Positions 8,356 through 15,298 of a stretch of DNA of 64,000 nucleotides are shown one piece after another. Position 1 is the stretch's first letter. Every line of letters begins with the position of its first letter. The notes below the pieces were generated by a model. The model was given only the letters and a program-made list of their open reading frames with translations. It did not search any database and had not been told where the DNA came from. This stretch comes from Roseicyclus salinarum. Its GTDB lineage: Bacteria; Pseudomonadota; Alphaproteobacteria; Rhodobacterales; Rhodobacteraceae. The translations under genes and the position numbers were made by a program. The stretch lies in assembly GCF_029624655.1 (NCBI RefSeq), contig NZ_JARRSA010000005.1, positions 62,001 to 126,000 of the forward strand, written 5' to 3'.

Positions 8356-11300
8356 ATGCCCGAATTCAAGAAGATCCTCGTCGCGAACCGCGGCGAAATC
8401 GCGATCCGCGTGATGCGCGCGGCCAACGAACTCGGCAAGCGGACGGTGGCGGTCTACGCCGAGGAGGACAAGCTGTCCCTCCACCGCTTCAAGGCGGACG
8501 AGGCCTACAAGATCGGCGAGGGGCTGGGCCCGGTCGCGGCCTATCTCTCGATCCCCGAGATCATCCGCGTGGCGAAGATGTGCGGCGCCGACGCGATCCA
8601 TCCGGGCTACGGACTTCTGTCCGAGAACCCCGAATTCGTCGATGCCTGCGCGGCGGCCGGCATCGCCTTCATCGGCCCGAGGGCCGAGACGATGCGCGCG
8701 CTGGGCGACAAGGCCAGCGCACGGCGCGTCGCGATCGAGGCGGGCGTCCCGGTGATCCCGGCGACGGAGGTGCTTGGCGACGACATGAAGGCCATCGCGA
8801 AGGAGGCCGAGGAGGTCGGCTATCCCCTCATGCTCAAGGCGTCGTGGGGCGGCGGCGGGCGCGGGATGCGCCCGATCATGAACGCGAAGGAGCTGGAGGA
8901 GAAGGTCCGCGAGGGCCGGCGCGAGGCCGAGGCCGCGTTCGGCAACGGCGAGGGCTATCTCGAGAAGATGATCCTGCGCGCCCGGCACGTCGAGGTGCAG
9001 ATCCTCGGCGACAGCCACGGCAACATCTACCACCTCTACGAGCGCGACTGCTCGGTGCAGCGGCGCAACCAGAAGGTCGTGGAGCGCGCGCCCGCCCCCT
9101 ACCTCTCGGAGGCCCAGCGCGAGGAGCTGTGCCTTCTTGGCAAGAAGATCTGCGAGCATGTGAACTACCAGTGCGCGGGCACCGTCGAGTTCCTGATGGA
9201 TATGGACACCGGCGCCTTCTACTTCATCGAGGTGAACCCCCGCGTGCAGGTCGAGCACACTGTGACGGAGGAAGTCACCGGCATCGACATCGTGCGCGCG
9301 CAGATCCTGATCACCGAGGGCAAGTCGCTGGTGGAGGCCACGGGCGTCGCCTCGCAATACGACATCAAGCTCGACGGCCACGCGATCCAGTGCCGCATCA
9401 CGACCGAGGACCCGACCAACAACTTCATTCCCGACTACGGGCGGATCACGGCCTACCGGGGCGCGACGGGCATGGGCATCCGCCTCGACGGGGGCACGGC
9501 CTATTCGGGCGCGGTCATCACGCGCTATTACGACTCGCTTCTGGAGAAGGTCACGGCCTGGGCGCCGACGCCCGAGGCCGCCATCGCGCGGATGGACCGC
9601 GCGCTGCGCGAGTTCCGCATCCGCGGCGTGTCCACCAATATCGCCTTCGTCGAGAACCTTCTGAAGCACCCGACGTTCCTGAACTACCAGTACACCACCA
9701 AGTTCATCGACGAGACGCCCGAGCTTTTCGATTTCAAGCCGCGCCGCGACCGCGCGACGCGCATCCTGACCTACATCGCCGACATCACCGTGAACGGGCA
9801 CCCCGAGACCGAGGGCCGGCCCCGTCCGCGGGCCGAGATCAAGGATCCCAAACCCCCCGGCCTGCGGGTCGAAACGCCCGCGATGGGCACGCGCCAGCTT
9901 CTGGAGGAGAACGGCCCCGAGGCGGTCGCAACGTGGATGAAGGAGCAAAAGCGCCTTCTGATCACCGACACGACGATGCGCGACGGCCACCAGTCGCTTC
10001 TCGCGACGCGGATGCGGTCGATCGACATGATCAAGGCCGCGCCGGCCTACGCGGCGAACCTGCCCGGCCTGTTCTCGGTGGAATGCTGGGGCGGCGCCAC
10101 CTTCGACGTGGCTTACCGCTTCCTGCAGGAATGCCCCTGGCAGCGCCTGCGCGACATTCGCGCGGCGATGCCCAACATCATGACGCAGATGCTTCTGCGG
10201 GGCGCCAACGGGGTGGGCTATACGAACTATCCCGACAACGTCGTGCAGGCCTTCGTCAAGCAGGCAGCCGAGAGCGGGGTGGACGTCTTCCGCGTCTTCG
10301 ACAGCCTCAACTGGGTCGAGAACATGCGCGTCTCGATGGACGCGGTGCTGGAGACGGGCAAGATCTGCGAGGGCACGATCTGCTACACCGGCAACATCCT
10401 CGATCCCGACCGGGCGAAATACGACCTGAAATACTACGTCAGGATGGCCAGGGACCTCGAGGCGGCGGGCGCGCATGTGCTGGGCCTGAAGGACATGGCG
10501 GGCCTTCTGAAGCCCGCGGCGGCCGCCGTCCTGATCCCCGCCCTCAAGGATGCCGTGGACCTGCCGATCCACTTCCATACCCACGACACCGCCGGCATCG
10601 CCTGCGGCACGATCCTCGAGGCCTCGGCCGCGGGCGTCGACGCGGTCGACTGCGCGATGGACGCGCTTTCGGGCAACACGAGCCAGGCGACGCTCGGCAC
10701 GATCGTGGAGGCGCTGTCCTTCACCGAGCGCGACACCGGCCTCGACATCGGCGCGATCCGCGAGATTTCGGATTACTGGGAGGCGGTGCGCGCCCATTAC
10801 GCCGCCTTCGAAAGCGGGATGCAGGCGCCGGCCTCGGAGGTCTACCTGCACGAGATGCCAGGGGGGCAGTTCACCAACCTCAAGGCGCAGGCGCGTTCGA
10901 TGGGGCTGGAGGATCGCTGGCACGAGGTCGCGCACATGTATGCCGACGTGAACCGCATGTTCGGCGACATCGTGAAGGTCACGCCCTCCTCGAAGGTCGT
11001 GGGCGACATGGCGCTGATGATGGTCTCGCAGGGCCTGACGCGCGAGGACGTGGAAAACCCGGCAAAGGACGTCTCCTTCCCGGACAGCGTCATCGACATG
11101 ATGCGCGGAAACCTCGGCCAGCCCCCCGGAGGCTTCCCGCCCGGCATCCTCAAGAAGGTGCTGAAGGACGAGCAGCCGATCCTCGAGCGGCCCGGCAAGC
11201 ATGTGCCGCCCGTCGACCTCGAGAAGACGCGCGCGGAGGTGGCGAAAACCCTCGACACCGAAATCGATGACGAGGACCTGATGGGCTACATGATGTATCC

Positions 11301-11799
11301 CAAGGTCTTCAGCGACTACGCGACGCGCCACAAGGACTACGGTCCGGTGCGAGCCCTGCCGACCCGGACCTTCTTCTACGGCATGGAACCCGGCGAGGAG
11401 ATCGAGGCCGAGATCGACCCCGGCGTGCGCCTCGTCGTGCAGCTTCAGGCCATCGGCGACACCAACGAGGAAGGCGAGGCCAAGGTCTTCTTCGAGCTGA
11501 ACGGCCAGCCGCGCACGATCCGCGTCCCGAACCGCCGGGTCGCCGCCACCCACGCCAAGCGTGCCAAGGCCGAGACGGGCAACCCCGCCCATGTCGGGGC
11601 GCCGATGCCGGGCGTGGTGGCGACCGTGTCGGTCTCGGCCGGGCAGAAGGTGAAGGAGGGCGACCTGTTGCTGACCATCGAGGCGATGAAGATGGAAACG
11701 GGCCTGCACGCCGAGCGCGACGCGACCGTGAAGGTCGTTCACGTCGCCGCCGGCGGCCAGATCGACGCGAAGGACCTTCTCGTCGAACTGGAGCCTTAA
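8356..11799 (+). CDS. pyc: pyruvate carboxylase
   Basis: A 1147-residue biotin enzyme that makes oxaloacetate from pyruvate, bicarbonate and ATP (anaplerosis, gluconeogenesis). Domains in order: biotin carboxylase (1-450) with the ATP-grasp loop KASWGGGGRGM and FIEVNPRVQVEH; carboxyltransferase (about 535-810) with DTTMRDGHQSLLATR and the metal ligands in HFHTHDTAG; the allosteric/PYC linker; and a C-terminal biotinyl domain with the biotinylated lysine in EAMKMET (about Lys1112). Length equals the usual single-chain type. AAAAGGAGC lies upstream of the ATG. Confidence 0.98.
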   Translation: MPEFKKILVANRGEIAIRVMRAANELGKRTVAVYAEEDKLSLHRFKADEAYKIGEGLGPVAAYLSIPEIIRVAKMCGADAIHPGYGLLSENPEFVDACAAAGIAFIGPRAETMRALGDKASARRVAIEAGVPVIPATEVLGDDMKAIAKEAEEVGYPLMLKASWGGGGRGMRPIMNAKELEEKVREGRREAEAAFGNGEGYLEKMILRARHVEVQILGDSHGNIYHLYERDCSVQRRNQKVVERAPAPYLSEAQREELCLLGKKICEHVNYQCAGTVEFLMDMDTGAFYFIEVNPRVQVEHTVTEEVTGIDIVRAQILITEGKSLVEATGVASQYDIKLDGHAIQCRITTEDPTNNFIPDYGRITAYRGATGMGIRLDGGTAYSGAVITRYYDSLLEKVTAWAPTPEAAIARMDRALREFRIRGVSTNIAFVENLLKHPTFLNYQYTTKFIDETPELFDFKPRRDRATRILTYIADITVNGHPETEGRPRPRAEIKDPKPPGLRVETPAMGTRQLLEENGPEAVATWMKEQKRLLITDTTMRDGHQSLLATRMRSIDMIKAAPAYAANLPGLFSVECWGGATFDVAYRFLQECPWQRLRDIRAAMPNIMTQMLLRGANGVGYTNYPDNVVQAFVKQAAESGVDVFRVFDSLNWVENMRVSMDAVLETGKICEGTICYTGNILDPDRAKYDLKYYVRMARDLEAAGAHVLGLKDMAGLLKPAAAAVLIPALKDAVDLPIHFHTHDTAGIACGTILEASAAGVDAVDCAMDALSGNTSQATLGTIVEALSFTERDTGLDIGAIREISDYWEAVRAHYAAFESGMQAPASEVYLHEMPGGQFTNLKAQARSMGLEDRWHEVAHMYADVNRMFGDIVKVTPSSKVVGDMALMMVSQGLTREDVENPAKDVSFPDSVIDMMRGNLGQPPGGFPPGILKKVLKDEQPILERPGKHVPPVDLEKTRAEVAKTLDTEIDDEDLMGYMMYPKVFSDYATRHKDYGPVRALPTRTFFYGMEPGEEIEAEIDPGVRLVVQLQAIGDTNEEGEAKVFFELNGQPRTIRVPNRRVAATHAKRAKAETGNPAHVGAPMPGVVATVSVSAGQKVKEGDLLLTIEAMKMETGLHAERDATVKVVHVAAGGQIDAKDLLVELEP

Positions 11800-11832: not shown

Positions 11833-11892
11833 GCGCCCGATTGCACCGTTAACCATGATCTTTGCCGATCATCTGACAGGGAAACCGGTGCC

Positions 11893-12588
11893 ATGGGCGC
11901 AGCTTCGTTCATCCGCTCCGAAACGGGCGCCGTCACCGTCGACTGGGTCGTGCTGGCGGCCGGCATCGCCGGGCTTGGGCTGGCGACGATGGCGCTGGTG
12001 TCGAGCGGGATCGAAACGCTCTCGGGCGAGACGAACTCGGCGCTGACGGGCATCAGCATCTCCGCAGCCTTTCCCGCCGCCTTCGAAGCGGTGCAGCTTG
12101 CGGCCTCGGATTTCACGGCGGGTTTGCGCGGGGCATGGACGGGCGGCACCGTGGCCGACGCGGGCGGCGCGATCGGCGAGGTCCTCAAGGTGGGCCGGGG
12201 CGACACGGCCGAACTGACGCTCACGGTCCCGCCGGGCGCGTCCCAGGCGGTCTTCACCTTCGACCTGATCGGCGGAGACAGCCTCGACAACGAGAGCGCC
12301 ACGATCATGATAAACGGAACGCCCGTCAGCGTCGCGACGGGCAACTTCGGATCGATCGCGTGGAACAACGTCGACGTGCCCGGCGTCACTGTCGAGACGC
12401 AGGTGCGAAGCCAGGGCACCCAGCTTGGCGGGTCCTACGAAGACGGCTGGAACGATTCGGTCACGACGGTCAGCATCGTCGTGGACAATGCCGGCGGGGA
12501 CGTCACGCTCGGCGTGCTGTCCGACACCAACCAGGCGCTGGACGACGAGTTTTTCGGCATCGACAACGTGACGGCCGAAGCGCGCTGA
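11893..12588 (+). CDS. Flp-prepilin-like protein with beta-rich C-terminal domain (copy 1)
   Basis: 231 residues. A short N-terminus is followed by TGAVTVDW and a single hydrophobic helix (about 17-40). G, four residues, then D-W parallels the class IVb prepilin site (G, four residues, E-Y/F). The remaining 185 residues alternate as in a beta-sandwich, with GGDSLDNESATIMING in the middle and a FGIDNVTAEAR end. The same architecture recurs in the next two genes. I infer a secreted, membrane-anchored or pilus-associated surface protein; no function is proven. A TTAACC half CtrA site is at 11849. Confidence 0.75.
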   Translation: MGAASFIRSETGAVTVDWVVLAAGIAGLGLATMALVSSGIETLSGETNSALTGISISAAFPAAFEAVQLAASDFTAGLRGAWTGGTVADAGGAIGEVLKVGRGDTAELTLTVPPGASQAVFTFDLIGGDSLDNESATIMINGTPVSVATGNFGSIAWNNVDVPGVTVETQVRSQGTQLGGSYEDGWNDSVTTVSIVVDNAGGDVTLGVLSDTNQALDDEFFGIDNVTAEAR

Positions 12589-12739
12589 GCGCCGCCTGAC
12601 GCCTCCGCGCCCCGCCCCGGTCGCAATCCCCACACCTCCGTGGCGCAGGAAGGGCGTGGGAAGGTACGAATCGAACCGAAATTTGGACACCTTGAAATCG
12701 GATGAAGCGTGCCGGGGGGCATGACGAAGGAACGAGTCG

Positions 12740-13495
12740 ATGAGAGGCATTTGTGTGCGCCGCATCCTGAACGAAGTGCCCGGCTACCTCCGCAGCGAAA
12801 GCGGGGCGGCGACGTCCGACTGGGTCGTGATGTCCAGCGCCACCGTCGGGATCGGCCTTGCCGTGATGTTCGTCATGACGCCGGGCGTCGAGCGGGCGTC
12901 GGGCGAGATCGCCGAAACCGTCGGCGCGATCATGACGGCGGCCGACGCGGTGCTGGCACGACACGGGTTCGACGATGGCATGGGGCCTTGGTCGGGCGGC
13001 GAGATAATGGACGTGCCAGGCTTCGGCAACATGCTGGTGCTCGACCGCAACGACAACCGCGGCGCGATCGGCGCGTCGGCGAGGCTCAGCATCGACCCCG
13101 ACGCGCCCTATGCCGTCGTCGAGTTCGACATGGCCTTCATCGACAGCTGGGACAACGAGACGGCGCAGGTCTACCTGAACGGCGAGGCAGTGGCGGTCGG
13201 CACCTTCACCCACCTCGATCATCCGCGCTTCGATACCGGCAACCTTCCGCCGCAGATGCGCGACCTCGGCGTCGTCGCCATCGACTTCGGCGAGCCCTCC
13301 ACGGTCGAGGGCGGCTATTTCAGGCCCGGCCAGGGAAGCCGGTTCGTCGATCACGTCCAGCCGGTCCGCATCGTCGTGGAGACCAACGGCGCAAGTGAGC
13401 TGGATCTCGGTTTCGGGACCAACCTCAACTCGGGCTACCGCGACGAATCGCTCGGCATCGATAATATCGTGGTGTCCTCGGCGCAGTCACGGTAG
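12740..13495 (+). CDS. Flp-prepilin-like protein with beta-rich C-terminal domain (copy 2)
   Basis: 251 residues, a diverged paralogue of the flanking two genes. It has the SGAATSDW prepilin-like site, one hydrophobic helix (about 30-50), then a beta-rich domain with FIDSWDNETAQVYLNG and the terminal LGIDNIVV. DSWDNE-type strands are common in bacterial extracellular jelly-roll modules. It carries an extra segment (about residues 170-215) around FGEPSTVEGGYFRPGQG that the other copies lack. AAGGAA precedes the ATG at 12740. It is 151 bp from copy 1, so separate transcription is possible. Confidence 0.72.
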   Translation: MRGICVRRILNEVPGYLRSESGAATSDWVVMSSATVGIGLAVMFVMTPGVERASGEIAETVGAIMTAADAVLARHGFDDGMGPWSGGEIMDVPGFGNMLVLDRNDNRGAIGASARLSIDPDAPYAVVEFDMAFIDSWDNETAQVYLNGEAVAVGTFTHLDHPRFDTGNLPPQMRDLGVVAIDFGEPSTVEGGYFRPGQGSRFVDHVQPVRIVVETNGASELDLGFGTNLNSGYRDESLGIDNIVVSSAQSR

Positions 13496-13599
13496 CGCGC
13501 GCCGCACCGTTTCCCGCCGTCTTCGGCAAGGTCCTGCCATCTCTGCGCCATTATGTGCTGAAACACGTGTGTCCCGTGATGATTGGAAGGAGTGACGCC

Positions 13600-14271
13600 G
13601 TGTTCCGGCAATTTCTTCAGGACGACAGCGGGGCAGTGACGGTCGACTGGGTCATCCTGACAGCCGCCGTCACGGGCCTGGCCATCGCGGTGGCCGTCGT
13701 CGTGTCGGGCGGCGTCGAGGCGCTGTCGACCGAGACGGGCGACGCATTGTCCGGCATGTCCATCCAGACCGCCTTCGCGCAGGCCGCTGACCGGCTGTCG
13801 ACCGACTTCTCCGACGGCCTCGGCGGCTTCGTCGGGGGTACCGTGGCAAGCATCATCGGCTTCGGCGAAGTGCTGCAACTGGGACCACTGGAATCGACGC
13901 AGACAGCCTTCGCGGTTCCCGAAGGCGCGACCACGGCGACCATCACCTTCGACATGCTCGGCGTCGACGACCTGTCGGGCGAAGCCGCCTCGATCATGAT
14001 CAACGGACAGGTCGTGGCGGTCTATGCCGACAACCACGGCACGATCACCACCACGGACGGCGGCGTCTCCGGTGTGAGCGTGTCCGTCAGCCAGCTCTAC
14101 AGCAACGACGCGGTGGGGGGCGGCAGCCACGGCAACGACAGCCGCGCGACCTACACGATCACCGTTTCCGACCCCGGCGAGACGGTGACCTTCGGCGTCA
14201 CCTCGGGCACCGCTCAGCCGATTTCGGAGGAATTCTTCGCGATCGACGACGTGAATTTCGAGGCGCGCTGA
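13600..14271 (+). CDS. Flp-prepilin-like protein with beta-rich C-terminal domain (copy 3)
   Basis: 223 residues, closest to copy 1. The N-terminus MFRQFLQDDSGAVTVDW is followed by one hydrophobic helix. The beta-rich domain contains FDMLGVDDLSGEAASIMING and ends FFAIDDVNFEAR. I chose the GTG at 13600 because GGAAGGAG lies 7 bases upstream; upstream ATG codons (13555, 13579) would add residues absent from copy 1. The short basic N-terminus before the G-x4-D-W site then matches Flp prepilin leaders in length. Confidence 0.72.
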   Translation: MFRQFLQDDSGAVTVDWVILTAAVTGLAIAVAVVVSGGVEALSTETGDALSGMSIQTAFAQAADRLSTDFSDGLGGFVGGTVASIIGFGEVLQLGPLESTQTAFAVPEGATTATITFDMLGVDDLSGEAASIMINGQVVAVYADNHGTITTTDGGVSGVSVSVSQLYSNDAVGGGSHGNDSRATYTITVSDPGETVTFGVTSGTAQPISEEFFAIDDVNFEAR

Positions 14272-14353: not shown

Positions 14354-14428
14354 GCGGGTGTAGCTCAGGGGTAGAGCATTACCTTGCCAAGGTAAGGGTC
14401 GTGAGTTCGAATCTCATCACCCGCTCCA
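14354..14428 (+). tRNA. tRNA-Gly (GCC)
   Basis: A 75-nt cloverleaf with encoded CCA. The acceptor GCGGGTG pairs with CACCCGC. The anticodon stem-loop ACCTTGCCAAGGT carries GCC. The T arm is GTGAG-TTCGAATC-TCAT. A GCCGC/GCGGC hairpin follows near 14468. Confidence 0.97.
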
Positions 14429-14710: not shown

Positions 14711-15298
14711 ATGCGAAGCGCGACCATAGCCCGCACCACAGCGGAAACCGGGATCTCCGTCGAGATAGACCTCGACGGGTCGGGCACCTACGACAACGCC
14801 ACGGGGGTCGGCTTCTTCGACCACATGCTCGACCAGCTCGCCCGCCACGCCCTGATCGACATGAAGGTGCGCTGCGAGGGCGACCTGCACATCGACGATC
14901 ACCACACGGTCGAGGATGTCGGCATCGCGCTCGGGCAGGCGCTGAGCCGCGCGCTCGGCGACAAGCGCGGCATCCGGCGCTACGGAAGCTTCCACCTCGC
15001 GATGGACGACGCGCTGGTGCGCGCGGCCCTGGACCTGTCGGGCCGCCCCTACCTCGTGTGGGACCTCGAATTCCCCACCGCGAAGATCGGCACCTTCGAC
15101 ACCGAGCTGGTGCGCGAATTCTTCCAGGCGTTCTCCACGCATGGGGGCATCACGCTTCATGTCACGCGGCTTGCCGGCATCAACAGCCACCACATCGCCG
15201 AGGCCGCCTTCAAGGCGGTTGCGCGGGCGCTGCGCGACGCCGTGGAGGCCGATCCGCGCAAGTCCGACGCGATCCCCTCGACCAAGGGCACGCTCTGA
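14711..15298 (+). CDS. hisB: imidazoleglycerol-phosphate dehydratase
   Basis: A 195-residue monofunctional HisB that dehydrates imidazole glycerol phosphate to imidazole acetol phosphate in histidine synthesis. The Mn-binding motifs are visible: [31 protein letters not shown] near residue 65, and the second-half repeat [13 protein letters not shown] near 155. It lacks the phosphatase half found in enterobacteria. GGAG lies upstream of the ATG. It begins the histidine gene run and is 34 bp from hisH. Confidence 0.97.

Follow-up and report, generated by a model that had tools for sequence, protein, structure and literature searches.

In Roseicyclus salinarum, three consecutive plus-strand open reading frames (ORFs) lie between pyc and tRNA-Gly/hisB (ORF and gene calls) within a 64-kb stretch of DNA that was analyzed as a whole and is called the window here. 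Each joins a prepilin-like N terminus to a larger C-terminal domain. In the usual description, Flp pilins are very small, wholly helical subunits, and the variety of Tad pili is ascribed to TadE/F/G-type tips; whether an Flp pilin can carry a binding domain of its own is the question that the locus raises. We consider it probable that the three genes encode modular Flp pilins through which a Tad pilus displays a head that binds glycans or surfaces. Positions are given in Table 1. For copy 3, GTG 13600 is a more probable start than GTG 13555, because AAGGAG lies seven bases before the former codon and the resulting leader, MFRQFLQDDSG, is as in the orthologues.

Table 1. Tandem pilin genes and related features (window coordinates unless a locus or contig is named; slash, predicted cut)
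Feature	Position	Strand	Description
Modular DW pilin 1	11893..12588	+	231 aa; leader MGAASFIRSETG; predicted cut after G12; Flp-like helix; jelly-roll head (predicted) beginning near residue 66
Modular DW pilin 2	12740..13495	+	251 aa (or 246 aa from 12755); leader end SESG; site G/AATSDW; longer head
Modular DW pilin 3 ORF	13555..14271	+	238 aa from GTG 13555; probable start GTG 13600 = 223 aa; site G/AVTVDW; head
Flp-like pilin module, copy 1	11893..12090	+	matches residues 7-63 of 66-aa tad pilin, 56%, 5.9e-16
MAM/CBM-like jelly-roll head, copy 1	12091..12585	+	predicted model, fold searches
Head, copy 2	12950..13492	+	predicted model
Head, copy 3	13795..14268	+	by alignment; whole protein 46% identical to copy 1
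Pyruvate carboxylase (pyc)	8356..11799	+	left edge of conserved pyc-hisB insertion site
tRNA-Gly (gcc)	14354..14428	+	right edge here; then hisB 14711-15298
Complete tad operon, four tandem DW Flp pilins	L017, G000:C68:67000-86900
aroC-adjacent anchored paralogues	L059 7629-8231; L054 8674-9282; L056 9616-10227; L060; L061; L102 6721-7434; L104 6371-7099

The sequence-only reading had described three tandem prepilin-like genes with a shared leader, a G-x4-D-W site, and a helix, and all of these are in place. Each copy has a short basic leader, Gly at -1, and then an uninterrupted hydrophobic helix, as in class III leaders; the leader ends are SETG/AVTVDW, SESG/AATSDW, and DSG/AVTVDW in copies 1, 2, and 3, respectively. 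Asp occupies +5 in all three copies, and +6 is Trp, not Tyr. Prepilins accept Asp at +5 besides Glu, and Tyr at +6 is a hallmark of Flp pilins, with "Flp-like" pilins that do not have it also described (PMC3244431). The Trp form (VTVDW) appeared in no pilus paper found in our literature search. Two other gene calls in the window have an N-terminal G-x4-[DE]-[WYF], both without a hydrophobic helix after it; copy 3 was itself called in truncated form, owing to the start that the gene caller chose. When the three proteins were aligned, copies 2 and 3 were 38% and 46% identical to copy 1, and 44 columns were invariant, among them G12, D17, W18, an N-G pair, and the final I-D; the head motifs quoted in the sequence-only reading were present and aligned across the copies.

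Over 60 residues, copy 3 matched a tad-locus pilin of 66 aa from this genome (BLAST, 4e-17), and copy 2 matched another such pilin (5e-16), with alignments spanning 60 to 70 residues; these values exclude chance. Because the matches run over nearly the full tad-locus pilin, a whole Flp-like pilin, and not a leader alone, precedes the head. Over 45 aligned positions, the window N-modules were 38 to 67% identical to the DW pilins of the tad operon, compared with 13 to 20% for canonical Flp and 9 to 16% for TadE/TadF proteins. The earlier term "pseudopilins" was imprecise, since the modules are Flp-like and unlike TadE/TadF. Searches of the three proteins against Pfam and NCBIfam gave nothing above cutoff (best, DUF4244 at 0.0012 in copy 3); a Toxin_10 match at 0.035 was set aside as chance. 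Neither Flp_Fap nor TadE (PF07811) of Pfam matched the window proteins, and Flp_Fap likewise missed the DW pilins of the tad locus that were tested. The window proteins resemble Flp/Tad (type IVb/IVc) pilins in their basic leader, Gly at -1, acidic +5, aromatic +6, single hydrophobic helix, and full-length similarity to tad-operon DW pilins, but they differ in the Trp at +6, the lack of an Flp_Fap match, the C-terminal domain, a size of 223 to 251 aa versus 50 to 80, and gene positions outside a tad locus. We file them neither as canonical Flp pilins nor as TadE-type minor pilins.

A search of the same genome with copy 1 returned, besides the three window genes, four small contig 68 ORFs and additional matches on contigs 18, 44, and 66. 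The contig 68 ORFs (63 to 79 aa, SGAVTVDWVVLTAAIVGLGLAV..., site GA(V/I)TVDW) stand at the head of a tad operon that also encodes CpaB/RcpC, a secretin, an OmpA-like protein, TadZ, TadA, TadB, TadC, two TadD-like proteins, and an A24 prepilin peptidase; the peptidase was identified by Pfam, and the other names come from reading of the translations. No tadE, tadF, or tadG was seen in the stretch of this operon that was read. A second tad locus, on contig 33, carries canonical Flp (VEY/VEYG), and two orphan tadE/F/G-like triplets (L105 5032-7191 and L106 6004-8639; contigs 66 and 33) occur at other genomic sites, and the stretches read there showed no further recognizable tad gene. The earlier remark that there are no tad genes nearby held for the window, where none was recognized among the gene calls, but the genome has both these loci and the orphan triplets. 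The triplets may be exchangeable Tad tips. Between rpsF/rplI and fabD there are another two orphan DW pilins (L019 6173-6957; 71 and 125 aa), the second with a G/N/D-rich tail.

The family was surveyed in 149 genera, with DW pilins scored at an E value of ≤1e-5 and contig 68-type TadZ at ≤1e-40. Each was present in 123 of the 149 genera; 120 had both, 3 had the pilin only, 3 had TadZ only, and 23 had neither (Fisher p 1e-20, kinship ignored). DW pilins tracked contig 68-type TadZ, and the best DW pilin match and TadZ were ≤10 kb apart in 62 of 71 genomes compared. Because the pilins of the tad operon share the site and DW pilins co-occur with the TadZ of that operon, D-W is, as judged from these sequences, the usual site in a Tad type that is widespread among Rhodobacterales and no oddity of the window genes. 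The suggestion that D-W could be a variant cleavage site was right in that the window genes have a class III site with D-W at +5/+6, but this site is not private to them, being ordinary in a tad operon of the same genome and in most genera surveyed.

We modeled copies 1 and 2 with AlphaFold2 from ten-sequence alignments. The heads were mostly confident (most blocks at a pLDDT of 84 to 95), and the helix part was of low confidence. The best Foldseek match was a porphyran-binding carbohydrate-binding module (CBM) for copy 1 (5.9e-4) and CBM22 for copy 2 (2.1e-4), both modest values. With VIA-align, copy 1 aligned at Z scores of 12.7 to 10 and an rmsd of 2.5 to 3.8 over 112 to 139 residues with MAM domains of astacin/meprin proteases, with CBM61, CBM22, and CBM16, with sialidase-linked modules, and with gingipain adhesin domains. 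The heads of copies 1 and 2 are accordingly predicted to be jelly rolls closest to MAM domains and CBMs, and the beta-rich, adhesin-like head of one fold proposed earlier is borne out in the models of these two copies. The N-terminal DF-x-x-G-x-GW and C-terminal (G/A)I-D-(N/D) of the head resemble motifs of MAM domains. The predicted beta sandwich is shared with MAM domains and with CBM6/16/22/35/61, but the identity to these is 8 to 17% and no Pfam MAM or CBM family matched above cutoff; single members gave subthreshold values for CBM_6 (0.018), InhA-like_MAM (0.025), and CBM27 (0.078). No Pfam family covers the head, and a search of PDB sequences with the head profile gave an antibody as its sole match (E value of 0.9). 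Since the jelly roll is a common fold, the ligand and function of the head do not follow from the fold match. The profile also matched within proteins with open frames of 1106 to 2148 codons in four other genera, of which the one scanned is an RTX-repeat/Hint protein.

Head-bearing pilins occurred in 4 of the 149 genera sampled. In searches that included a contig scan with a five-head alignment, they were found at the pyc-hisB site in Roseibacterium sp. SDUM158016 (2 copies, of types 1 and 3), HLUCCO18/G003 (1), HKCCE4037 (1), an uncultured Roseicyclus (1), and the genomes coded G015 (4), G104 (1), and G164 (2); they lie near hisB in G001 and adjoin clpX and parE in two Jannaschia genomes. Copy number at the pyc-hisB site thus varies among relatives. 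In a tree of 32 heads, the window copies fell into three separate clades shared with other genera: copy 1 grouped with copies of G002 and G015 (95/86), copy 2 with G001 and Jannaschia faecimaris (97/92), and copy 3, in a wider clade, with G003, G002, L074, L075, and others (98/98). Because these well-supported clades span genera, the tandem is old and has been trimmed or extended by lineage, and the proposal that it was amplified in place is not supported. On the tree, the copies are paralogues of ancient origin, and other lineages have lost copies or duplicated them separately. A tblastn search of plasmids with copy 3 gave no match. In G164 (L103 9-6402), the head-bearing pair beside pyc is followed by contractile-tail-like genes (of phage or extracellular injection type, as read from translations), which suggests that cargo accumulates at the pyc-hisB site.

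Orthologues were 47 to 72% identical in the N-module versus 67 to 86% in the head, the module evolving faster, and dN/dS between orthologues was about 0.12 to 0.31 for the head versus about 0.2 to 0.6 for the module (NG86, few pairs). By these ratios, the heads are under purifying selection.

The same head also occurs behind a plain N-terminal transmembrane segment, in aroC-adjacent paralogues from seven genomes, this one included (G002, G003, and G104 are among them). These paralogues retain S/T/K-x-D-W/R but have N, R, or T at -1, and the cleavage Gly is present in none of the seven. Head-bearing DW pilins have Gly at -1 in 22 of 22 cases and, in nearly all, D at +5 and W at +6 (one has N-W and one D-F). 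Because the Gly is conserved throughout one group and absent from the other, the simplest reading of the alignments is that the pilin group has been selected for cleavage and the aroC group has not. The aroC proteins look like plain single-pass anchors, which lends some weight to an explanation in which the window proteins, too, are membrane-anchored periplasmic domain proteins; the DW segment, cut or not, would serve mainly as a transmembrane anchor, and the head would do its work at the inner membrane or within the periplasm, with no pilus involved. Stronger conservation of the head than of the anchor fits this, and the window genes are not linked to tad genes, a point that also counts against the pilus reading. 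An anchor of this kind is nevertheless unlikely, given the Gly and near-invariant D-W of the 22 pilins and a similarity over the full Flp length that would be superfluous for an anchor. For the modular-pilin reading, the same head in cuttable pilins and in anchored proteins that apparently cannot be cut offers a natural contrast for what pilus display adds.

If the window proteins are modular pilins, the A24 prepilin peptidase of the DW-type tad operon would cut after the conserved Gly, the helix would insert into the DW-type Tad pilus as a minor subunit, at the tip or in the shaft, and the head would be displayed outside, where it could bind a glycan or other surface ligand. With several such genes scattered over the chromosome, one pilus might bear different binding surfaces. 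Homology, domain order, co-occurrence, and predicted fold class are the data here, from which we infer cutting, assembly, filament position, and ligand. The rarity of head-bearing forms among the genera means that the pilus does not need heads; this counts against the reading, as do the faster evolution of the N-module, the low-confidence helix in the models, and a fold match that is too common to point to a ligand.

The window proteins could also be alternative tip minor pilins that replace TadE/TadF/TadG of the DW-type Tad pilus and prime its assembly. Large heads are known on the pilins TadG and CpaL; Tad tip minor pilins (TadG/CpaL and KilL/M/N) have exchangeable large or variable domains, and Myxococcus encodes paralogous Tad tip sets outside the main locus (PMC12607857, PMC12075869). 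The window proteins would resemble these tips in putting large exchangeable domains on a Tad pilus, and the operon stretch read lacks tadE/F/G. The known tips, however, belong to the TadE/F/G lineage, from which the window modules stand apart at the low TadE/TadF identities given above, and most genera with the operon lack heads. The idea is further weakened because the genome has the two orphan tadEFG-like triplets, which could already supply the tip and in that respect count against the pilus reading as well; we regard it as quite improbable. That the genes are decaying, functionless pilin-gene duplicates in which a domain was picked up fortuitously would suit the variable copy number at pyc-hisB but is already disfavored and scarcely credible, with three intact frames, orthologues kept across genera, and the low head dN/dS.

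Modular pilins are known from the type IV system of S. sanguinis, in which PilB has a vWA domain and PilC a concanavalin A-like (lectin-like jelly-roll) domain; that survey covered pilins with an IPR012902 N terminus (PMC8179133). Copies 1 and 2 (in the predicted models) and copy 3 (by alignment) likewise consist of a pilin module with a distinct folded domain behind it. PilB and PilC share with them the grafting of a binding-type domain onto a pilin module, and PilC also the lectin-like jelly roll, but here an Flp-like Tad module is the carrier, and Pfam has no model for the head family. The principle is therefore known; no paper on head-bearing Flp pilins, and no Flp carrier with a dispersed head set across a large marine lineage, was found in the literature searched. 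If Flp modules do carry binding heads, they would be a further, hidden route to new Tad pilus specificities in a major marine lineage. Such pilins escape profile searches, as Pfam lacks a family for the DW module and for the head alike.

The DW module carries other tails as well. Forms of 142 to 171 aa lie in trmL, primase, and cytochrome-oxidase neighborhoods, the trmL-site tail being helical-looking. Beside parE the tail is helical-looking too and kept in the genus; L058 bears, in tandem, a head that contains cysteine, and L120 ends in a beta-rich-looking tail of another kind. Upstream of parE, this genus has a DW/DY pilin with the helical-looking tail, whereas J. faecimaris has the MAM/CBM-like head (L020 6193-6684, L078 6806-7489); head replacement at one site and two insertions are both possible. 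We tentatively raise a broader idea, which we hold with less confidence than the modular-pilin reading of the window genes: in Rhodobacterales, the short DW Flp module may be a universal plug onto which unrelated C-terminal domains are grafted at dispersed housekeeping loci; a single unlinked Tad machine would then bear an exchangeable, genome-wide set of heads along the pilus or at its tip.

A promoter scan of the intergenic gaps found no promoter. Upstream of copy 1, at window positions 11849-11856, lies a CtrA-like half site, TTAACCAT (TTAACC). Similar half sites precede genes of two relatives and are absent before copies 2 and 3; TTAACC/GGTTAA occurs just four times in the 64-kb window.
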